This document shows, piece after piece, positions 193-10,920 of a DNA stretch of 64,000 nucleotides. Origin of the DNA: Actinobacteria bacterium HGW-Actinobacteria-1 (GTDB taxonomy: Bacteria > Actinomycetota > Coriobacteriia > Anaerosomatales > Anaerosomataceae); the NCBI GenBank assembly GCA_002841355.1, contig PHFB01000001.1:1-64000 (forward strand), in the 5' to 3' direction. Within the stretch, counting starts at the first letter, position 1. Each line of letters starts with the position of its first letter. The notes under the pieces were generated by a model. It worked only from the letters and a program-made list of their open reading frames with translations, did no database searches and was not told where the DNA came from. A program made the position numbers and the translations under genes.

Positions 193-1995
193 ATGACAGA
201 CCCCACACTCATACGAAACTTCTCGATCATCGCGCACATCGACCACGGAAAGTCCACGCTGGCCGATCGCATGCTCGAGCTGACGAACACCATCGCTGAC
301 CGCGACATGATGGAGCAGGTGCTCGACTCGATGGATATCGAGCGCGAGCGCGGCATCACCATCAAGGCGCAGGCGGTGCGTGTCTACTTCGAGGCGTCCG
401 ACAGCCAGACGTACCAGCTGAACCTGATCGACACGCCAGGTCACGTTGACTTCACCTATGAGGTCTCCCGCTCGCTCGCGGCGTGCGAAGGCGTTCTCCT
501 GGTCGTCGACGCGACGCAGGGTGTCGAAGCGCAGACGGTCGCCAACGCGCAGCTCGCCATGAACGCGCACCTGGAGATCGTTCCGCTCATCAACAAGATC
601 GACCTGCCAGCTGCCGATCCCGAGCGCGTCCGTCACGAGATCGAAGAGGGTCTCGCTATCCCCGCAGACGAAGCCGTGCTTACGAGCGGCAAGACGGGAC
701 TCGGCGTCCGCGAGGCGCTCGAGGCGGTCGTCAAGCATGTGCCGCACCCCGTCGGCGACCCGGACGCGCCGCTCAAGGCGCTCATCTTCGACTCGTACTT
801 CGACGCGTACCGCGGTGTAGTCGCCCTGATCCGCATCGTCGATGGTCACGTCCGCAAGGGCATGAAGGTCCGCATGCTCGCCACGCAGACCGTGACCGAT
901 GTCGAGGAGGTCGGCGTCCGCCGTCCTGCGAACCTGCCCGTCGATGAACTCGGCGTTGGCGAGGTGGGGTACCTCATCACCGGTCTCAAGGACCCGTCGC
1001 TCGTGAAGGTCGGCGATACGGTCACCCTTGCCAAGCACGGTACCGAGGATCCGCTGCCGGGCTATCGCGAAGTGAAGCCGATGGTGTACACGGGCCTGTT
1101 CCCGATCGACGGCGACCAGTACCCCGAGTTGCGCGACGCGCTCGATAAGCTTCAGCTCAATGACCCCGCGCTCATCTACGATCCCGAGAGCAGCCACGCA
1201 CTCGGCTTCGGTTTCCGAGTAGGATTCCTCGGCCTGCTGCATATGGAAGTCGTGAAGGAGCGCCTGGAGCGCGAATTCGACCTGGATCTGCTCGCGACGG
1301 CGCCGTCGGTGGAGTACCACATCTTCCGCACGAATGGCACGAGCGAGTTCATCCATTCGCCGCAGGACATGCCCGATCCCGGCACCATCGACCACATCGA
1401 GGAGCCGTACCTCAAGGTCACGGTCCTCGTTCCGCCCGACTACGTCGGTCCGGTCATGGAACTTGCCGAGGGACACAGGGCCAGCTTCAAAGACATGCAG
1501 TATCTCTCGAAGACCACCGTCGAGATGCACTACGAGATGCCGCTCTCGGAACTCATCATGGATTACTTCGACCAGCTCAAGAGCCGCACCAAGGGGTACG
1601 CGAGCATGGACTATGAGTACATCGGGTACCGGACGAGCGAGCTCGTGAAGCTTGACGTGCTGCTCGCCACCAAGATCGTGGACGCGCTCTCCTTCATCGT
1701 GCACAAGGACAAGGCGTACGCCCGCGGCAAGGTGCTGACCGAGAAGCTTCGCGAAATCATTCCTCGACAGATGTTCGAGGTGCCGATCCAGGCGGCCATC
1801 GGCGGGCGCATCATCGCCCGTGAGACCGTGAAGGCCAAGCGCAAGGACGTTCTGGCCAAGTGCTACGGCGGTGACATCACCCGCAAGCGCAAGCTCCTGG
1901 AGAAGCAGAAGAAGGGCAAGAAGCGCATGAAGAACGTGGGTAACATCGAAGTCCCGCAGGAAGCCTTCATGGCTATCCTCAAGGTCGACGAGTAG
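193..1995 (+). CDS. lepA: Elongation factor 4 (LepA)
   Basis: Ribosome-associated translational GTPase that acts on stalled or incorrectly positioned ribosomes. The 600-residue length is normal for the family. The N-terminal G domain carries the P-loop [10 protein letters not shown] (about residues 15-24), the switch region [15 protein letters not shown] and NKID. Domain II, the EF-G-like domains and the LepA-specific C-terminal domain follow, ending in the typical lysine-rich stretch ([17 protein letters not shown]) and [10 protein letters not shown]. No in-frame alternative start exists just upstream, and no Shine-Dalgarno sequence precedes the ATG, so the message may be leaderless. Identity is certain; the expression mode is inferred. 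Confidence 0.98.
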
Positions 1996-2058
1996 CCCCC
2001 GAATACCCGCATCCTTCAGTGTCGTGGTTGTTCCCCATAAGTAGGTATGACTTCCCCC

Positions 2059-2089
2059 TTGCGCAGTCTTAGCCAGCGTAATGTAGACT
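2059..2089 (+). promoter_or_regulatory. Possible promoter of the large cytochrome gene
   Basis: TTGCGC (2059-2064) and TAGACT (2084-2089) are separated by 19 bases in the 157-base gap between lepA and the large cytochrome gene. The spacer is longer than ideal, so this is a weak prediction. Confidence 0.3.
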
Positions 2090-2152
2090 GAGCCCGACAT
2101 CGCGTGTGCTCAGTTGCGGTGTTCGGACCGCGCATCGAGGGTGGGGGAACCT

Positions 2153-5100
2153 GTGAGAAGGCAAACGATCCTGCAAGTACTGTGCACGGTACTCCTGATC
2201 TGCGTGATGTGCGTGCCGGTAGGCATCGCGGGTGTCAGTGCCCGGGGCGCCGTTGGCGGGACAGGTTCCCAGTCTCTCGCGCGAGCTGCCGTCACCTTGC
2301 GAGCCAAGGCCGTTGCGTCTACTCCGTTTGCTGTTGCAGTGAAGCCGAAGCAGGTAACGGCTGACGTGACGGCAAACGTGCGCCGCAGCGCCAAGGTCGT
2401 TGCGCAGAAGCCCAAGAAGAAGCCCGTGGTGCCCTCTGTCGAGCCGACCACCCCGCCTGTCGTCACGCCCACGGGGACTGTGGATCCGCCCGTGCCGCCA
2501 GCGCCGCCTGCGGCACCCGGCAAAGTCACCGCCGTGTCGTGTGTCTCGGATGACATGGCGGATGTCGTGACGTTCAGCGCGCCAGAGGACGGCGGCTCCG
2601 TGAGCTCGTTCGCGCTGCTGCGCTCGACCTCCACTGACGGTCCGTTCACTCAGGTGCAGGCCGCCGCACCGGACGCTCGCGTGTTCCGACACTCGATTGA
2701 CGAGACCGCAGCCGCCTTCTATGCCGTCGTTGCGGTCGGCGCCGGGGGAGAGGGGCCGCGCTCGGACCTCGTCGACAATAACGTCGTGTCGATCAGTGCC
2801 GAGGTGACCCCCGATGGCCGCACGCTGCGTTCATCCAACGGTGAGGTCGTCCTGACGCTTGCTCCGGGTTCGTTCACCACTACGACCACAGTGACGATCG
2901 GTGAGGCCTTCAGCGCGCCGATCGGCGGGATTCTATCGCTCGCTGGCGCGTACATGATCGAGCCGTCAGGCGCTCTTCAGGCGCCTGCCACGCTCTCGGT
3001 TGCGTACACGCTCGCGGTGACGCACCGGCAGGTCTCGGCCGCACTTCTGAAGGCTGCATCGCTTCTCACCTACAACGAAGAGACGCAACAGTGGGTGTCC
3101 GGGGCCAGTGATGTCCGAGCAGAGGGCGGCTATGTCACCGGCACGGTCGACCACTTCAGCGAGTGGGTGCCTGGCACGATACAGCCCCACGGCACGAGCC
3201 CGGAATCCGTCGACTACTGCTCGGGTGTCTGTCACGACCTGGAGACGTCAGTCGGCTCGACCCTGCGGTACGCGGCTCGGGATTCCCAGGTCTGCTACAA
3301 CTGCCACGGCAATCCGGATACAGCGGGCGCGCCTCTTGGCGCCAGCGGGGAGAACGTCCAGGGTTCATTCACCAGTCCGTACACCATCTCAAAGCATCCC
3401 GTGGCCACAGGTGGACTGTATTGCACGGCATGCCACAACCCGCACGCTGATCCCGCCACGAGCCCCGGTCTCCTGCGTGCGTACGATGCGGTCACCGGTA
3501 AGGCTGTCACGTCCGGCACGGCATACTGCTGGGCGTGTCACGGCACGGTCGCCAATCGTGCGATCAACGCGCTGATCCCCGGGTACTACACCCGCTCGGG
3601 GGGCAACAAGAAGACGGCGTTCAACGGCGCGCACAATACCGTGAACTCGAACACGATCCGACTTGATTCTGCCGAGGAGCTGTCGCGCGGGTTCCTGTCC
3701 GGAACACAGGTGCAGGGGGATGGTACGGTCACCGTGGCGCAGACGTCCATTCTGCTGCCGAAGACCGCGACCGCGACCGCAGATCCTCCAATCACCGGCG
3801 ACTACGCGCACAGCCCGCCTGATACCGGTCATGCGTACGACGGCAGCTTGGACACGAAGGTCTTCTGGTCCGCGGCGGGGATGGGTGCCAGTGCCGCCAA
3901 TAGTTGGATTGGGGCGAGCAGTCTGAAGGTCGATCTTGGGAGCATGAGCCAGGTTACGTCTTTCGAGGTCAACTTCATCAACAACACAGGCACTGTCCCA
4001 CACGTGATCGAAGTACAAACGAGTCCCGACGGCGTCGCGTGGACGAACCTCGTGAGCCATGGTGTGATGGGAACCCCCGTGCCTACTTCCGGAGTGGTGC
4101 TGAACGGATCAGCAAACTGTCGCTACGTGAAGTTCGTATTCCGCCGCGACTTCACGACCGCGCAGACAGCTACGGTCACGATCGCGGAGCTTTCAGTCCG
4201 CGGCATGGCGTCGGTCGGAACGTTCACCTTCCGACCGGATATCGCCAGGAAGGCGACGTTCACGAGCGGGGCCGTACGGTGGGCCGATTCAGTCGCGGCT
4301 CCGGCAAGCGTGGTAGTCGCTACACGCGCCTCGCTCAATGATGGGACGACGTGGACGGCGTGGCAGACGGTCGCCAACGGAAGTGGACTGACGCAGATAC
4401 CGGGCGGTTCTAGCCTGGAGCACGCGCGGCTGGAAGTGCGGGCGACGATGAACACGGGCGGCGCCACTTCGCCAGCGCTCGACTGGATCGAGGTTGCCAC
4501 CACCCGGGGCGCCATCTCGGGCTCCGTGCCGACATGGACGGGCTCGCCCACGTCGAACGAGTGCCAGCGCTGTCACGTAAGCCACGGTAGCGACAAGCCC
4601 GGGCTCGTCAGGGCGGACAGCACCACGGCCTGCACAACGTGCCACACCGCACAGTACGGATCGTACTCAGGCCAGGCGCAATTCGGCACATCGGTGCACA
4701 AGGACGTGTCATGTACCGCGTGCCACGGGTCGCACGGCACGCCCAGTGGTTCGGGCGGCGTCTATGCATACCTACTGAACGGGACGCGACGAGAGGTGTG
4801 CCTGTCGTGTCATGTGGTCGTGGCCGACGCGTTCAACGCGGTCACGCACGCTGATTCACAGTGGGCGAAACACGACGTGTTCTCGGCCGAGGCAGTCAAG
4901 AGCGGCAGCAGCATCGCCTGCGGCAACTGTCATTCCACCCACTCGTCGACGACAGGCCTCGTGGACCCGGATGCAACCGATGTCGCGTTCGTGAAGATGA
5001 TCGATGATCCGACGTCGATTCCGACATCGGAAGTCGTGGTGTACGCATCGAAGGACACCATGCTGGATTCCACAGCAGGCCAGGAGTCATGGAACTACGG

Positions 5101-6052
5101 TTCATCGAGTCAGATCACGATCACGCAATCCACCCGGGCGCTCTTCTACTTCGATCTGAGCTCGATTCCGGCTGGTGCGACGATTCAGAACGCGACGCTC
5201 GTGCTGTGGGGTACCAACCTGAACTATACCGTGTACAAAGGTGGGTACGCGGTGTACCCCGTCACGCGCAGTTGGTCTGAAGGCACCGGCGTCGGTACGG
5301 CGAACAGCGCAGTGATCGACGGGGCTACATGGGCCGAGTCCAGCTTCGGTTCTGGTTGGACCACGCCGGGCGGGGACTACGGTGCTGTGGGCGCGCCCAA
5401 CGCTACAGGCATCGCCGCGCTCAACGTGACCGACCTGGTCAGGTCATTGAAGCAGGGGACCAATCACGGAATCGGTATCAGGGCCGTCACTTCGGACACC
5501 TCCTTGCCGATGTTCATGCGCGAGACGACCACTCAGCAGAACCGTCCCAAGTTGCGGATTGTGTACCAGACGGGAACGGCTACGCGGCAGGTGGTGGATG
5601 ACATCACATTCTGCAACAAGTGCCATGACTCGACGACGCCGCTCGGCATCTCCGGGCAGACGTTGTCCATCATCGGGTACCAGTACTCGTATTCGGTGCA
5701 TGGCGGCGGTAAGGGGGTTGGACCGGAATCGTCTGCCTTCAACTTCTGGTCGGCCGACACAGGTGGCGGGGGGCTGAAGGCTCCGTATTCGTACGGTATG
5801 GACGCCCTGACATGCACAACGTGCCATGATCCGCACGGTTCGCGTTTGCCGTACCATCTGAAAGAGGTCGTGAACGGTAGGGACATGACGCCGCTCTTCC
5901 CGAGCGGGTGGACGTATGCGACGGCGGGGTCCGGGATGTCGCTGGGCTACTTCTGCGGCGCCTGCCACGTATTCCCGACGAACCATGCCGGGTATGAGAC
6001 AAGCATCGGTACTAGTTGTGCGAGTGGGTGTCATGGTCACGGCGGAAGGTAG
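2153..6052 (+). CDS. Large modular multihaem c-type cytochrome, secreted
   Basis: A 1,299-residue exported protein. It starts at GTG 2153 behind a purine-rich GGGTGGGGGA site and has a signal peptide with hydrophobic core ILQVLCTVLLICVMC. A Pro-rich linker is followed by an FN3-like domain (about 119-209), a ZU5-like domain (212-339), three CxxCH haem motifs (CYNCH, CTACH, CWACH), an F5/8 type C (discoidin)-like domain (560-685), five haem motifs (CQRCH, CTTCH, CTACH, CLSCH, CGNCH), a DNRLRE/CBM96-like beta domain (957-1139) and three more haem motifs (CNKCH, CTTCH, CGACH). That makes 11 canonical haem sites. Two CxxxCH motifs, CSGVCH at C356 and CASGCH at C1289, bracket the haem-bearing part. 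There is no C-terminal membrane anchor or sortase signal. The likely role is extracellular electron transfer with surface or glycan binding. The domain names are by eye; the haem motifs are directly visible. Confidence 0.85.
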   Translation: MRRQTILQVLCTVLLICVMCVPVGIAGVSARGAVGGTGSQSLARAAVTLRAKAVASTPFAVAVKPKQVTADVTANVRRSAKVVAQKPKKKPVVPSVEPTTPPVVTPTGTVDPPVPPAPPAAPGKVTAVSCVSDDMADVVTFSAPEDGGSVSSFALLRSTSTDGPFTQVQAAAPDARVFRHSIDETAAAFYAVVAVGAGGEGPRSDLVDNNVVSISAEVTPDGRTLRSSNGEVVLTLAPGSFTTTTTVTIGEAFSAPIGGILSLAGAYMIEPSGALQAPATLSVAYTLAVTHRQVSAALLKAASLLTYNEETQQWVSGASDVRAEGGYVTGTVDHFSEWVPGTIQPHGTSPESVDYCSGVCHDLETSVGSTLRYAARDSQVCYNCHGNPDTAGAPLGASGENVQGSFTSPYTISKHPVATGGLYCTACHNPHADPATSPGLLRAYDAVTGKAVTSGTAYCWACHGTVANRAINALIPGYYTRSGGNKKTAFNGAHNTVNSNTIRLDSAEELSRGFLSGTQVQGDGTVTVAQTSILLPKTATATADPPITGDYAHSPPDTGHAYDGSLDTKVFWSAAGMGASAANSWIGASSLKVDLGSMSQVTSFEVNFINNTGTVPHVIEVQTSPDGVAWTNLVSHGVMGTPVPTSGVVLNGSANCRYVKFVFRRDFTTAQTATVTIAELSVRGMASVGTFTFRPDIARKATFTSGAVRWADSVAAPASVVVATRASLNDGTTWTAWQTVANGSGLTQIPGGSSLEHARLEVRATMNTGGATSPALDWIEVATTRGAISGSVPTWTGSPTSNECQRCHVSHGSDKPGLVRADSTTACTTCHTAQYGSYSGQAQFGTSVHKDVSCTACHGSHGTPSGSGGVYAYLLNGTRREVCLSCHVVVADAFNAVTHADSQWAKHDVFSAEAVKSGSSIACGNCHSTHSSTTGLVDPDATDVAFVKMIDDPTSIPTSEVVVYASKDTMLDSTAGQESWNYGSSSQITITQSTRALFYFDLSSIPAGATIQNATLVLWGTNLNYTVYKGGYAVYPVTRSWSEGTGVGTANSAVIDGATWAESSFGSGWTTPGGDYGAVGAPNATGIAALNVTDLVRSLKQGTNHGIGIRAVTSDTSLPMFMRETTTQQNRPKLRIVYQTGTATRQVVDDITFCNKCHDSTTPLGISGQTLSIIGYQYSYSVHGGGKGVGPESSAFNFWSADTGGGGLKAPYSYGMDALTCTTCHDPHGSRLPYHLKEVVNGRDMTPLFPSGWTYATAGSGMSLGYFCGACHVFPTNHAGYETSIGTSCASGCHGHGGR

Positions 6053-6131
6053 TCTGACAGGGTGAAGCACGTCCACGGGGAGACCGGGTGCCACGGGGAT
6101 TCGATGACAGCCTTGAACGCCCCGGAGCACG

Positions 6132-7316
6132 ATGAGTAGGAGCGAGCCCGTGCGACTACCGGCGCATCTGTATGTGCATGTCCCACTGTGTCGCTCCAAG
6201 TGCGCGTACTGCGACTTCTACTCGCTCCCGCTCTCCAGCGCCACGGAGGGGACCACCGCGGTCGCGAACTCGCTTGCGGCGCAGGCGCTGGCTTGGCTGG
6301 ATCGGGATGTCGCACCGCGGCCGCTGCGAAGCGTGTACATCGGCGGCGGCACGCCCAGCGTTCTGGGCGCGGACCTCGCACGCCTGGTGGAGGTCCTCAC
6401 TTCATCGTTCCCGCTCGAGCCGGACGTGGAAGTCACCATTGAGGCGAACCCGGAGTCGCTCGACAGGAATCTCGTGGAGGCGCTCGCCAGAGCCGGCGTG
6501 ACACGTGTCAGTCTCGGCGCGCAGAGCCTTGATGACACGGTACTGGCGTTCCTCGAACGCCCGCATGATGCTGCAGCAGTACGTGCCGCTGCCCGAGCGG
6601 TGCACGAAGCCGGGCTCGCGCTCTCGCTCGATCTCATCTGCGGCATTCCGGGGCAGACAGCTCAGTCCTGGATTGACACCGTCAATGGCGCAATCAACCT
6701 CGGCCCGGAGCATGTGTCGGTGTATCCATTGTCGATCGAGGCGGGCACCCCGCTTGCGGCCGCGGTGGCTATCGGCGACGTGCAGGAGCCTGATCCCGAC
6801 GTCGCCGCCGATATGATGCTGCTGGCGCAGCACGTGCTGGGGCAAGCGGGGCTCGAGCGCTATGAGGTTGCGAACTACGCGCGCCGCGGAGCCGAATCGC
6901 GGCACAACACGGCGTACTGGACGGGGATGCCATACCTGGGTGTCGGCCCTGGCGCCCACGGCATGCTCGATGTCGAGACTGCGGCTGCCGTCGGCTTCGT
7001 GTCGGCGCGCACACCCGGTGTCGCGCGTCTGCGCTATGCCGTCGCCTGCGATCTGAGCGCCGGGCTTACGCCGATGCCACGCGTGGATACAGAATCTCTC
7101 TCGCGTGTGGAAGCTGCCCGGGAGGATGTGATGCTCGGCTTGCGACTCGTTCGTGGCGTCCACGAGGAGGATATTGTGGCCGCAGGGGTTGCGTCCGTTA
7201 TCGATGGACTCGCCGAGGACGGTCTGGTCGAGCTTGTCGACCATCGTTGGCGCACCACGGAGCGAGGCTGGCTGCTTGGCAATGAGGTATTCGGCGCCGT
7301 GTGGGCAGGGGAGTGA
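6132..7316 (+). CDS. hemW: HemW haem chaperone (HemN-like radical SAM protein)
   Basis: A 394-residue radical SAM protein. The [4Fe-4S]/SAM motif is C20-x3-C24-x2-C27 in the sequence CRSKCAYCDF, with the CDF ending typical of HemW/HemN. A glycine-rich GGGTPS motif and a C-terminal HemN-type domain follow. HemW proteins bind haem and help insert it into haem proteins; most are not coproporphyrinogen dehydrogenases. Its position between lepA and hrcA is the ordinary Gram-positive location, but here it also lies directly between multihaem cytochrome genes, which fits a haem-delivery role. The start is ATG 6132. The older label 'oxygen-independent coproporphyrinogen oxidase' is the alternative. 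Confidence 0.92.
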   Translation: MSRSEPVRLPAHLYVHVPLCRSKCAYCDFYSLPLSSATEGTTAVANSLAAQALAWLDRDVAPRPLRSVYIGGGTPSVLGADLARLVEVLTSSFPLEPDVEVTIEANPESLDRNLVEALARAGVTRVSLGAQSLDDTVLAFLERPHDAAAVRAAARAVHEAGLALSLDLICGIPGQTAQSWIDTVNGAINLGPEHVSVYPLSIEAGTPLAAAVAIGDVQEPDPDVAADMMLLAQHVLGQAGLERYEVANYARRGAESRHNTAYWTGMPYLGVGPGAHGMLDVETAAAVGFVSARTPGVARLRYAVACDLSAGLTPMPRVDTESLSRVEAAREDVMLGLRLVRGVHEEDIVAAGVASVIDGLAEDGLVELVDHRWRTTERGWLLGNEVFGAVWAGE

Positions 7317-7323
7317 GGCCAGC

Positions 7324-7352
7324 TTGACGTGCGCTCGCTGGGCGGCTAGCTT
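7324..7352 (+). promoter_or_regulatory. Predicted sigma-70 promoter of the 7388 cytochrome
   Basis: TTGACG (7324-7329), a 17-base spacer and TAGCTT (7347-7352) lie right after hemW and about 35 bases before the cytochrome start codon. The -35 box and spacing are good. This suggests the cytochrome is transcribed separately from hemW. Confidence 0.55.
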
Positions 7353-7387
7353 AGGCAAGAAATGGTAAGCCTGCGGAAGGTTGCAAA

Positions 7388-8449
7388 ATGGGGGAGTCAC
7401 CGATGATGGACAGGGCGCGGCCGATGGCGGCCGCAGCGGCGATCATCGGGCTTCTTGCACTGGGCATCCTTGCGATTCCGAGCGCTGCCTTCGCCTTCTC
7501 TGATCCCGGGTTCTCCAGCCCTTTCTCCTGCAACCAGTGCCATTCCACAAGTGGGACTTCTTCCGCCGACTGGGAGGGCAAGGGGCCTCACGGATTCTAC
7601 GCCGCGACCTCAAGCAAGTGCGCCGTCTGCCATACAGTGCACAGGGCACCGGCCGATGGAGTGCTCTTGCTGGCCGGATCCACCGTCTCAGGGTCATGCC
7701 TGTCGTGTCATGACGGCACCGGGGGAACCGCGCCGTACGATGCGATCGAGGCGCGCGGTGGCACGGTCGTCTCCGATCACTCGGTGGATTCGACGACGGC
7801 GGTCCCGGGCGGATCGATGGGTCTGTCGTCCAATCTAGGCTGCAACGACTGCCATAGCGTGCATCGCAGCAACGTTGTCGCGCCCTTCTATCGCGATAGC
7901 GGGATCGCCCTGGCCGCGCAGCAGCTCGTGGCCTCGGATTGTCTGCTGCGCAGTGACGTGAACACCAGTACGAACGACGGCTTCCCGGTATACGGCGCAC
8001 AGTGGTGCGCCTCGTGCCACGACGAGCGTCACTCGCAGTCGATGAAGATCAATCACCCGGTGGCTACGAGCTTCTCGGTCGGATACGGCGAGGTCACTAC
8101 CACCGAGGGGCTGGCCGGGAATCCGACGAGGGCCTACGGGGACGGTAGTGACGGAACGTACTTCGTCGGCATGGGGCAAACGAACGCCGGCTACATCATG
8201 GCGCCGGTTACGGCATCCGCTGACGGGCGCGTCGAGAATCGGCAGGACCCTCTGTGTCAGCAATGCCACGAGGATTCTCGGGACGTGACCGCGGCATTCA
8301 GAGCTGACTACTCGGATCCCGACCCGATCGGCGCTGGCTACAATCCGCGGTATCTCACATTCCCGCACCAGTCGACGAATCCAAATCTGCTGGTCGAGAC
8401 CGATGACAACCTGTGCCTCAACTGTCACCTGGTGACGGAGCTCCCGTAG
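7388..8449 (+). CDS. Heptahaem c-type cytochrome, secreted
   Basis: A 353-residue exported cytochrome. An N-terminal signal peptide (hydrophobic AAAAIIGLLALGILAI, likely cleavage after AFA) is followed by seven CxxCH motifs in order: CNQCH, CAVCH, CLSCH, CNDCH, CASCH, CQQCH and CLNCH. The segments CLSCHDGTGG and CQQCHED and the terminal LCLNCH-x5-LP recur in the minus-strand cytochrome that ends at 8613, so the two are paralogues. The start is ATG 7388, and a good promoter lies upstream. The probable role is a periplasmic or surface electron carrier. The genes convert no recognisable substrate (no nitrite-reductase CxxCK site is visible), so the partner is unknown. Confidence 0.85.
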   Translation: MGESPMMDRARPMAAAAAIIGLLALGILAIPSAAFAFSDPGFSSPFSCNQCHSTSGTSSADWEGKGPHGFYAATSSKCAVCHTVHRAPADGVLLLAGSTVSGSCLSCHDGTGGTAPYDAIEARGGTVVSDHSVDSTTAVPGGSMGLSSNLGCNDCHSVHRSNVVAPFYRDSGIALAAQQLVASDCLLRSDVNTSTNDGFPVYGAQWCASCHDERHSQSMKINHPVATSFSVGYGEVTTTEGLAGNPTRAYGDGSDGTYFVGMGQTNAGYIMAPVTASADGRVENRQDPLCQQCHEDSRDVTAAFRADYSDPDPIGAGYNPRYLTFPHQSTNPNLLVETDDNLCLNCHLVTELP

Positions 8450-8612
8450 TCCAGCATCTGGCTAGCACGTCGGATGCGGCACACGTTGCTACGGCAGGCT
8501 GAAAGCCGGTCGACTCAGTGCCGATGACCTCGGCGCACACCGACAGCCCGATCGTGTCGGATCAGCGTCCCCGTTCACGCATGGCGGCGAGCATATCCCA
8601 CAGTCTGCAGCG

Positions 8613-9722
8613 TTATGGCAGCTGCGATGTCGGATGGCAATTCAGACACAGGTCGTCGAGTTGTTGGGTCGCTCCGGCCTCGACGAGCATGCGGTAGTTC
8701 GTGGACTCATGTGGGAAGTTCTGGAACCGCGGGTTGCTGGACGTCTCCACACCGTCGGGCATCGTGACCAGGAACGGCGTCACAAGCGCCTGAGTTCCCG
8801 TTGTGGAGAGACTGCCGACACTCCGGGCATCCTCATGACACTGTTGGCAGATCGGTGCGTGCCCCGCCTGCTGGGCGGTTCTCGGGTACGGCATCAGATA
8901 GCCCTGGTTCGAGAAGCCGAGCGTCTGATTGGCGACGGTCGTTCCGGTCCAGGCCCCACTCGCGTTGAGCACGGCGACCCGGCTGTACACGAAGGGAGTC
9001 GTCGTGGTCGCGGCGGAGTCGACCGGGTGATTGTGGACGACGGTCTGTGCCGAGGAGCGACCCTGGTGGCACGCGAGACACCAATCGGACCCGTAGTCGG
9101 CCGTGCCGGTTGGACTGTTTCCAGGATGCTGCTTGAGCAGGTGCGTCTTGATCTGCGGGAGACGCGTTGTGGAGCCCGCGAGCCGGTAGCGGTCTCCCTG
9201 GTAGGCCGCAACAAGGTCACTGCCGTGCGGCGAGTGACAATCAGTGCACGTGAGCGTGCCGTTGAGGCCGCCGAACGTCATCGAGGCCGAGCCACCGGTT
9301 GCCGCGCTGCCACCCGGGATGACACTCGTCGTCTCAACAGAATGGCCAGAAGCCACCGTCAGGCCCCGCGCGGCGATCGTTCCGTACACGCCGCCACCGC
9401 CGGTGCCGTCATGGCACGACTCGCATGATGCCTGGACGGTTGCGGCCGGGAGTAGCAGTACCCCGTCAGAGGGGGCGTCATGGATCGTGTGGCACCCTTT
9501 GCACTTGTACGTCGTGGTGGTGTAGCCGCCATGGACGCCAATTGCCGTTGTGCCGTGAAAGATGCTGTAGCCATACGGGTTGTGGCACCGGCCACAGTTG
9601 TCCTCGGTCATGGCGGGGATGGTGGAGGTCGACTCGTCGTACGCGAACGCGACCCCGGTTGTGCAGCTAACGAGAATCCATGTGGTCACGAGCATCAACG
9701 CGACCCGGTGACTCCTGCTCAC
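8613..9722 (-). CDS. Heptahaem c-type cytochrome, secreted (paralogue)
   Basis: A 369-residue exported cytochrome, convergent with its paralogue at 7388. The chosen start is GTG 9722: a GGGGG ribosome-binding site lies 6 bases upstream and the signal peptide then starts cleanly (VSRSHRVALMLVTTWILVS). An upstream ATG at 9752 has no ribosome-binding site. Seven CxxCH motifs occur: CGRCH, CKGCH, CESCH, CTDCH, CLACH, CQQCH and CLNCH. Order and spacing match the sister protein, with shared blocks CHDGTGG, CQQCHEDAR, NFPHEST and LCLNCH near the C-terminus. The arrangement points to an inverted duplication of an ancestral gene. Electron-transfer function is inferred from the haem motifs and signal peptide; donor and acceptor are unknown. 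Confidence 0.85.
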   Translation of the reverse strand: MSRSHRVALMLVTTWILVSCTTGVAFAYDESTSTIPAMTEDNCGRCHNPYGYSIFHGTTAIGVHGGYTTTTYKCKGCHTIHDAPSDGVLLLPAATVQASCESCHDGTGGGGVYGTIAARGLTVASGHSVETTSVIPGGSAATGGSASMTFGGLNGTLTCTDCHSPHGSDLVAAYQGDRYRLAGSTTRLPQIKTHLLKQHPGNSPTGTADYGSDWCLACHQGRSSAQTVVHNHPVDSAATTTTPFVYSRVAVLNASGAWTGTTVANQTLGFSNQGYLMPYPRTAQQAGHAPICQQCHEDARSVGSLSTTGTQALVTPFLVTMPDGVETSSNPRFQNFPHESTNYRMLVEAGATQQLDDLCLNCHPTSQLP

Positions 9723-9823
9723 GATTGCCCCCAATGAACCAACAGTACACATTAAGCAGTCGATACGGTGATTACCACAGATGAGGCGATGTCGGCAATG
9801 GTGGCGTCGCCGTGCGGCCAGAC

Positions 9824-9852
9824 TTCAGCAAGTATGCCGAGCGTGATACCAT
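9824..9852 (+). promoter_or_regulatory. Predicted promoter of hrcA-dnaJ
   Basis: TTCAGC (9824-9829) and TACCAT (9847-9852) are spaced by 17 bases and end four bases before the CIRCE element, so the operator would cover the transcription start. The boxes are not strong; the placement relative to CIRCE is the best support. Confidence 0.5.
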
Positions 9853-9855
9853 TCG

Positions 9856-9882
9856 TTGGCACTCGTAATCGGAGAGTGCCAA
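9856..9882 (+). promoter_or_regulatory. CIRCE operator (HrcA binding site)
   Basis: TTGGCACTC, nine bases, GAGTGCCAA: a perfect 9-9-9 inverted repeat differing from the CIRCE consensus (TTAGCACTC-N9-GAGTGCTAA) at one symmetric position. It lies 15 bases upstream of the hrcA start, so HrcA probably represses its own operon until heat stress. Confidence 0.95.
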
Positions 9883-9897
9883 CGTAGGAGTACGCGC

Positions 9898-10920
9898 ATG
9901 CTGAACGAACGCCGGCGCGCTGTTCTCGCCGCTCTCGTCGATGAATATGTGAGCACCACCCAGCCGGTCGGCTCCAAGGTCCTCGTGGAGCGGCACCGTC
10001 TGGGCTGCTCGGCTGCGACGGTCCGCTCCGAGCTCGCAGCCCTCGAAGAAAGCGGCTTCGTGCGCTCGCCGCACGTCTCGGCAGGACGCGTGCCCACAGA
10101 CACCGGCTATCGCGCTTTCGTTGACGACGTTCACGAACGTATCGGTGCCCTTGGCCTCAGTTCCGAGGAGGTCGGCAGCATCCACACCGCGTATGAGGCG
10201 CTCGAGCACGAGATGGCCGACGTCATGCGCGAGACCTCGATGCTCCTGTCGCGCTTCACCAACTACGTTGCCGTGGTGGCTGCTCCCGCGCTCAGGCGCG
10301 CACGGATCCGGCGTGTTTCGGTCGTTCCGCTGGCCGAGCGACGCGCGCTGGTGGTTGTGGTCACCGACTCGGGCCAGGTTGCCAACCGTACGCTCGACCT
10401 TATGGTCTCGGCGACCGATGCGATGCTTGCCGAGGTGGAGCGGTACCTGACCGCCATCCTCGAGGACAAGGTCGGCGACCAGGTCGTGGGTATCCGCGAT
10501 GATGCGTCCTCGGCGGGTGACGCGTTCGCGCGCGTGACGCTCCAGGTGCTCGACGAAGTCGTCGACTGCCTCAAGGAGGCCGACGAGGACCGCGTGGTCA
10601 CCGGCGGCGTGGCAGCGCTGCTCGCGCAGCCGGAACTTGCCGATCCCGGCGTCGCCCGTCCTGTGGTGGCGCTCCTCGAAGACGGCCTGACGATGCTCAA
10701 GGTGCTCTCGGACGTGATGCAGTCCGGCGGCGTCGCGGTGCGCATAGGTCATGAGAACCCAGTCGACGCGCTCGGCGCGATGAGTTTCGTCGCAAGCCCG
10801 TACGGAACCAAGGACCGTACCGGTGTCATCGGCGTCATCGGCCCAACCCGCATGAACTACCCCCGCGCGATCACCACGGTGAAGACCGTGGCCGATTCGC
10901 TCACTGACGTGCTCGGATAA
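9898..10920 (+). CDS. hrcA: Heat-inducible transcription repressor HrcA
   Basis: A 340-residue repressor of heat-shock operons. The N-terminal winged-helix domain contains the family signature GCSAATVRSELAALEESGFV and the SAGRVPTDTGYR motif (about residues 40-80); the GAF-like dimerisation region follows. ATG 9898 was chosen because TAGGAG lies 7 bases upstream; a TTG at 9856 in the same frame falls inside the CIRCE operator and is rejected. HrcA is first in an operon with dnaJ 12 bases downstream. grpE and dnaK, which often lie between these two genes, are absent here and must be elsewhere. Confidence 0.97.
   Translation: MLNERRRAVLAALVDEYVSTTQPVGSKVLVERHRLGCSAATVRSELAALEESGFVRSPHVSAGRVPTDTGYRAFVDDVHERIGALGLSSEEVGSIHTAYEALEHEMADVMRETSMLLSRFTNYVAVVAAPALRRARIRRVSVVPLAERRALVVVVTDSGQVANRTLDLMVSATDAMLAEVERYLTAILEDKVGDQVVGIRDDASSAGDAFARVTLQVLDEVVDCLKEADEDRVVTGGVAALLAQPELADPGVARPVVALLEDGLTMLKVLSDVMQSGGVAVRIGHENPVDALGAMSFVASPYGTKDRTGVIGVIGPTRMNYPRAITTVKTVADSLTDVLG

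Follow-up and report, generated by a model that had tools for sequence, protein, structure and literature searches.

A predicted 13-haem cytochrome of an actinobacterium carries beta domains between its haem modules and may be a surface-held electron conduit

Introduction

Little is known about how Gram-positive and deep-branching bacteria position electron conduits on a mineral, a matrix or a partner cell. The first 64,000 nucleotides of contig PHFB01000001.1 of Actinobacteria bacterium HGW-Actinobacteria-1 (hereafter the window, meaning the whole stretch of DNA that was analysed) come from such a deep-branching and probably Gram-positive host, and encode a 1299-residue multihaem cytochrome (hereafter the large cytochrome) in which groups of haem motifs are separated by beta domains. 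A preliminary description, made from the sequence alone, had suggested that this protein conducts electrons and at the same time binds a surface, mineral or glycan. In the explanation that we prefer, with a probability of roughly 0.6, the large cytochrome would be a secreted 13-haem c-type cytochrome, the three bis-histidine (bis-His) modules of which (4, 5 and 4 haems) would form one conserved wire. An FN3/ZU5-like stalk would precede the wire, cassettes would be placed at its two joints, and the whole would act as an extracellular conduit held at a surface.

Results and Discussion

Haem motifs and haem modules

The gene of the large cytochrome is a single open frame of 1299 codons that runs from a GTG start at 2153, preceded by a good ribosome-binding stretch, to a stop at 6052. 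Two family models scored above their cut-offs (PF09699, 96 against 20.6 bits; TIGR01905, 82.6 against 25.2 bits), and the protein is, by its sequence, a multihaem c-type cytochrome with doubled CxxCH motifs. The positions of the motifs (Table 1) bear out the eleven CxxCH sites in groups of 3, 5 and 3 that had been described; shuffled versions of the protein contained 0.02 such motifs on average and 2 at most. Two further sites had been overlooked, CSGVCH at amino acid (aa) 356 and CASGCH at aa 1289. The two full-length orthologues have CxxxCH at both positions as well. The former is aligned with a canonical CxxCH in five relatives (L036, L138, L139, L140 and L142), and the latter with the C-terminal CxxCH of L036 (CFDCH), L017 (CFGCH) and L072 (CSPCH). 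Since the CxxxCH sites are kept in the full-length orthologues and aligned with CxxCH in relatives, the large cytochrome is likely to carry 13 haems in a 4-5-4 grouping.

The distribution of conserved histidines was also analyzed. Thirteen of the 15 non-motif histidines inside the haem modules are kept in both full-length orthologues, compared with two of nine outside, and these 13 are partitioned 4, 5 and 4 over the modules. Each haem would then have one possible distal ligand within its own module, which would suffice for bis-His ligation of all 13. In module 2, His 811, 849, 861, 907 and 930 are invariant across 10 relatives. Module 3 calls for some caution: His 1183, 1228 and 1278 and the histidine following the last motif are invariant in 14 relatives, and His 1235 is nearly so; the histidine following the last motif is aligned with 1296, with an offset of 1-2 residues in two orthologues.

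In a structure search, the profile of module 2 matched 6r2q_A (1.1e-21), the printed molecule name of which is cystathionine beta-synthase and which we take to be the decahaem MtrA. The profile of module 3 matched NrfH (1e-6) and, weakly, OmcS (6ef8, 0.014), and that of module 1 weakly matched 7tfs (6e-5), presumably OmcE.

Beta domains between the haem modules

An F5/8C-like and a DNRLRE domain had been proposed to lie between the haem groups, and both proposals held. PF00754 (F5/8C) scored 30.8 bits on the whole protein, above its gathering score of 28.2 bits, and 36.3 bits (7e-9) on the domain alone. NF033679 (DNRLRE) scored 65.8 bits against a cut-off of 34 (E-value 4.7e-18). Relatives of the F5/8C domain with solved structures occur in sialidase, lactadherin and chitobiase. 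A second beta domain, at aa ~691-793, had been overlooked; it showed a weak match in a 1408-aa cytochrome of the same genome.

The DNRLRE profile of the window family matched no solved structure, and the DNRLRE domain of the relative L144 matched one solved DNRLRE structure, 8wab (3.7e-5). One DNRLRE/CBM96 domain binds alginate (PMC9971899). The CBM96 family is defined by Lys/Arg residues of the groove, Arg36 above all, together with alginate binding.

The FN3- and ZU5-like domains described at the N-terminal side stood in part. The large cytochrome itself gave no FN3 or ZU5 Pfam match (PF00041, PF00791). Its residues 118-342 have a homologous counterpart in L036 (1.7e-12), and weak matches of these types were obtained among the relatives (fn3, 2.3e-6, in one relative; Tissue_fac, 3e-4; ZU5, 0.014, in one relative). 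FN3 and ZU5 domains at the N-terminal side are therefore probable.

The beta domains as inserted cassettes

The relatives of the large cytochrome were compared at the two joints between the haem modules. L036, from the metagenome-assembled genome 'Actinomycetes bacterium' CSMAG_2342 (an identical sequence is present as G196), has FN3-ZU5 followed by modules 1, 2 and 3 in order. The F5/8C, second beta and DNRLRE domains gave no match in the compact relatives L036, L138, L139 and L140, though the haem modules matched in order. The spacing between haems 4 and 5 is 345 aa in the large cytochrome and 50 aa in L036, and that between haems 9 and 10 is 231 aa and 52 aa, respectively; the corresponding spacings in L138, L139 and L140 are 49-50 aa and 61-72 aa. 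Over the compact relatives from other parts of the phylum, the stretch ahead of haem 10 ranges from 52 to 75 aa. Four other relatives (L142, L152, L144 and L145) have an additional dihaem ahead of module 2, with 44-50 aa between this module and the last haem preceding it. In L142 and L152, with their two extra haems, the joints are closed as well. A DNRLRE domain lies exactly at the haem 9/10 joint of L144 (1.2e-31) and L145 (1.6e-29), neither of which has F5/8C. In giant relatives, which are 2300-2650 aa long, FN3-ZU5 and module 1 match those of the large cytochrome (e.g. 4e-78, 3e-55); one insert, of ~820-845 aa, lies inside module 2, and the haem 9/10 joint contains another of ~820 aa.

Since compact relatives have the same wire with closed joints and others have a single insert, the beta domains are, on this comparison, cassettes inserted into a conserved haem wire. 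The window family is by the same comparison one solution within a wider pattern of inserts in this wire. The preliminary description had considered that the haem groups might be too far apart for electron transfer; this is unlikely, since relatives have the same haem modules without the inserts.

A broader proposal falls a little short of an even chance and is put forward tentatively. There may be a phylum-wide plug-in family, in which a fixed wire of 13-15 haems takes exchangeable beta cassettes (F5/8C, DNRLRE, the ~820-aa giant inserts) at a few joints. Exchange of the cassettes would retarget the conduits to new surfaces and leave the wire undisturbed.

The motif of haem 8 varies among these proteins. 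It is a plain CxxCH in the window family, CTADGTGGCH (CX7CH) in the giants L074 (aa ~1590), L075 (aa ~1596) and L067 (aa ~1233), CYGGSSSSGACH in L036, and CX7CH or longer in L138, L144 and L145. In the genome of the window, a 1047-aa cytochrome (L120:3519-6659) shows an FG-GAP match (PF13517, 5e-7) in a long stretch between two haem groups, and matches to MtrC domains II/IV (PF22113, 9e-20). In another genome of the same family, a 4696-aa open frame (G016 C2:127383, L149) matches the cytochrome core.

Secretion and retention at the cell

The signal peptide of the large cytochrome reads VRRQTILQVLCTVLLICVMCVPVGIAGVSA, followed by RG, as judged by eye; an orthologue has FANA/K at the position of the VSA/RG site. 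No C-terminal anchor, lipobox, transmembrane or sorting anchor was seen in the protein. These observations agree with the signal peptide and missing anchor of the preliminary description. The linker that follows the signal peptide, which had been overlooked, contains 13 Pro and has a net charge of +10.

It is worth noting that the same features fit another explanation. The cassettes (F5/8C, DNRLRE, FN3/ZU5) might bind polymers of the cell's own wall and so retain the unanchored secreted cytochrome there, without a grip on anything outside. The lack of a visible transmembrane or sorting anchor, the positively charged Pro/Lys-rich linker, and the Gram-positive wall of cultured members of the probable order (PMC9686372) all speak for it. 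Against it, the compact relatives without cassettes indicate that the cassettes are not needed for the fold. This explanation, which we regard as rather unlikely, is compatible with the surface-held conduit, the ligand being the only difference.

Distribution and gene neighbourhood

The genome comparison that had been proposed for this architecture found orthologues with the same layout in a congener (G003, 57% identity) and in another family (G048, 49%), and partial ones in G009 (52%) and, in another family, G041 (29-33%). The phylum is Actinomycetota, to judge from the presence of L036 in it, and the large number of cytochromes, together with sister families poor in them, makes Anaerosomatales (OPB41) of the Coriobacteriia the probable order. 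An assembly chimera was considered for the large cytochrome and rejected, intact orthologues having been found. A DNRLRE domain is fused to module 3 in five of the 69 genomes of the order. Identity to the congener G003 is 78% in ZU5 and 81% in module 1, at the N-terminal end, and 53-54% at the C-terminal end, where the distant G048 is closer to the window protein (60-61%). The uneven identity hints at recombination or transfer. Base composition gave no clear sign of recent transfer of the gene (G+C content 0.635, compared with 0.637 for the window), and relatives were found neither in viral contigs nor on plasmids. No riboswitch or other known RNA was found upstream of the gene, and the promoter and terminator scan returned nothing above chance. 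G048 (L071:1-11089) has, after the orthologue, another large cytochrome, which shares its FN3-ZU5 and module 1.

The gene order in the window is lepA, large cytochrome, hemW, cyt353, cyt379 (on the opposite strand) and hrcA. In G003 it is lepA, hemW, large cytochrome, cyt353, cyt379 and hrcA, so that the large cytochrome lies ahead of hemW in the former and after it in the latter. G004, the LepA of which is 99% identical, has lepA, hemW, cyt379 and hrcA, with neither the large cytochrome nor cyt353 at this place. In five genomes (G012, G017, G021, G009 and G006), a giant cytochrome adjoins lepA together with a homologue of cyt353. The lepA-hemW-hrcA neighbourhood (193-10920 in the window; also L069, L073, L074, L075, L076 and L078) is a recurrent site of cytochrome genes.

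The cyt353 homologues that adjoin large cytochromes form a clade (support 1.0). With orthologues of cyt353 defined by an E-value below 1e-95, seven of the 27 genomes of the family have both cyt353 and the large cytochrome, one (G024) has cyt353 alone, and 19 have neither. We regard cyt353 as a putative partner of the large cytochrome. The genome of the window contains ~35 open reading frames with at least three CxxCH (including L067, L068 and L116-L132). One of them, in a cytochrome cluster, is NapC/NirT-like (PF03264; L127:7418-8536). A 648-aa protein with 23 CxxCH is also encoded in this genome.

Table 1. Positions of the large cytochrome, its predicted parts and its neighbours in the window.
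Feature	Position	Strand	Remarks
lepA	193..1995	+	Several genomes have related cytochromes at the neighbouring site
Multihaem cytochrome gene, 1299 aa	2153..6052	+	Open reading frame; intact orthologues L069:3587-7474, L071:6359-10120
Sec-type signal peptide	2153..2242	+	By eye; VSA/RG site
Pro/Lys-rich linker	2243..2503	+	aa 31-117
FN3-like domain	2504..2788	+	No Pfam match of its own; homologous to a segment of L036 (fn3-type match)
ZU5-like domain	2789..3178	+	Weak, via homologues
Haem module 1, 4 likely haems	3179..3652	+	CSGVCH aa 356, CYNCH 381, CTACH 424, CWACH 459; candidate distal His 346, 415, 431, 494
Insert 1a: linker and F5/8C (discoidin-like) domain	3659..4219	+	Pfam stretch aa 558-665
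Insert 1b: second beta domain	4223..4531	+	aa ~691-793; no named family
Haem module 2, 5 likely haems	4532..4987	+	aa 804, 827, 854, 883, 923; profile matches MtrA
Insert 2: DNRLRE domain	5015..5575	+	NF033679, 4.7e-18
Haem module 3, 4 likely haems	5576..6049	+	aa 1154, 1221, 1268, CASGCH 1289; distal His candidates 1183, 1228, 1235, 1278
hemW (haem chaperone)	6132..7316	+	TIGR00539 above cut-off; between large cytochrome and cyt353
cyt353, putative partner	7388..8449	+	353 aa, 7 CxxCH, signal peptide; orthologues adjoin large cytochromes that share the N-terminal module
cyt379, 379-aa paralogue	8613..9752	-	7 CxxCH; kept in a congener without the large cytochrome at this place

A possible route of electrons

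In the proposed route, the NapC/NirT-like candidate would oxidise quinol at the membrane, and the respiratory electrons would pass to 7-haem cytochromes such as cyt353. From cyt353 they would enter the 13-haem wire, which would lead them through the cell wall or beyond it to an acceptor outside the cell, perhaps a mineral, matrix or a partner cell. On its outer side, the wire would bear the beta cassettes, and these would bind polysaccharide, wall, mineral or some other surface and so keep it fixed. The domain layout on which the preliminary description had based its surface-binding conduit is real and is conserved in orthologues, and such a conduit is the best reading of it. Binding and electron transfer are what we infer from this layout, as are haem attachment, the continuity of the wire in three dimensions, its location, the direction of electron flow and the ligands of the cassettes.

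Several points weigh against this explanation. Single-sequence AlphaFold gave unusable models (predicted local distance difference test, pLDDT, 29 for aa 794-1299 and 32 for aa 111-802), and no usable model was obtained for the packing of the modules across the inserts. For F5/8C and DNRLRE domains, a structural role in place of binding is possible. The DNRLRE profile of the window family matched no solved structure through which the residues that bind alginate in CBM96 might be traced. The architecture is not essential for the lifestyle, because the DNRLRE domain with module 3 is patchy in the order. The co-occurrence of cyt353 and the large cytochrome (Fisher 9e-6 in the 27 genomes) was calculated with shared ancestry ignored.

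Alternatively, the large cytochrome might be a subunit from which a cytochrome filament is built, its beta domains serving in assembly or being removable. The weak matches of module 1 to 7tfs and of module 3 to OmcS point in this direction, but such matches are expected among multihaem proteins. OmcZ offers a parallel, in that OzpA removes the tandem immunoglobulin domains at its C-terminus (PMC9473688); against this, the beta domains of the large cytochrome are located between the haem modules, not at one end, and no protease gene was noticed adjoining it. We consider a filament improbable. Least probable of all is that the protein acts as a terminal reductase of soluble acceptors and not as a conduit. 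Such a role has been proposed for OcwA, one of the surface cytochromes of Gram-positive iron reducers and a proposed multifunctional reductase (PMC7829351). In the large cytochrome, each of the 13 haems has a conserved distal histidine available, and nothing in the sequence points to an open catalytic haem.

For the surface-held conduit, the new elements are the likely 13-haem 4-5-4 core, the placing of the cassettes where modules meet, along with relatives in which these joints are closed or half-open, and the putative partner cyt353. The shared haem core and the varying inserts suggest a conserved wire fitted with different grips. Relatives with closed joints, one insert or two inserts constitute a natural experiment in which wiring and binding can be compared, and cassettes separable from the wire could tell what such cells hold on to.

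Comparison with known systems

The preliminary description had called the architecture unusual among extracellular cytochromes. This applies to the particular combination of domains: no mention of DNRLRE together with a cytochrome was found in open-access papers, subscription papers not being covered. It does not apply to the alternation of beta domains and haem modules, which has a clear precedent in MtrC/OmcA (PMC12304082), or to the presence of beta or glycan-type domains, which occur in OmcZ and in cytochromes of anaerobic methanotrophic archaea (ANME) (PMC9473688, PMC9012536).

Members of the Anaerosomatales have 17-18 multihaem cytochromes, and one strain, with a Gram-positive wall, is an obligate Fe(III) reducer; in the passages of this source that were examined, no such domain architectures were seen (PMC9686372). 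Among the nearest proteins are the compact cytochromes with 12-14 motifs from other Actinomycetota lineages (L036, L139, L140, L142 and L144), which have the same haem modules in the same order. They differ in the absence of F5/8C, in having DNRLRE only in L144 and L145, in the long CXnCH at haem 8 of several and in the two extra haems of some.

The multihaem cytochromes (MHC) of ANME types A, B and C are likewise large surface cytochromes, fused to S-layer (surface-layer) or pectin-lyase-like domains (PMC9012536). They are archaeal, and types A and B have an S-layer domain and a transmembrane anchor. The window protein showed no S-layer, M6-like or pectin-lyase-like domain in Pfam up to an E-value of 1, which separates it from all three types.

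OmcZ resembles the large cytochrome as a secreted protein with a haem domain and beta-sandwich domains (PMC9473688). It has 8 haems, its immunoglobulin domains are C-terminal and cleaved, and no sequence match to the window protein was found. The latter, with 13 likely haems and beta domains between its modules, falls outside the OmcZ-type nanowire class.

In the MtrA/DmsE group of decahaem proteins, the likeness lies in module 2, which matches MtrA, but this module is only a part of the larger window protein; the full-length decahaem model TIGR03508 scored 58.9 bits, far below its cut-off of 192.2.

MtrC and OmcA of the Shewanella outer membrane share with the large cytochrome the alternation of beta domains and bis-His haem modules in one secreted chain. 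MtrC has two pentahaem modules, compared with 4-5-4 in the window protein, and other beta domains, and no lipobox was seen in the window protein. The model for domains II/IV of MtrC/MtrF (PF22113) scored 21.9 and 19.3 bits on it, below the cut-off of 30, and its grouping departs from the layout of that family, in which each of two pentahaem domains follows a beta-barrel. In MtrC, electrons pass between domains II and IV owing to the way in which the split beta barrels are arranged (PMC12304082). Because the barrels of MtrC permit this exchange, beta domains between haem modules, as in the large cytochrome, need not interrupt electron transfer.

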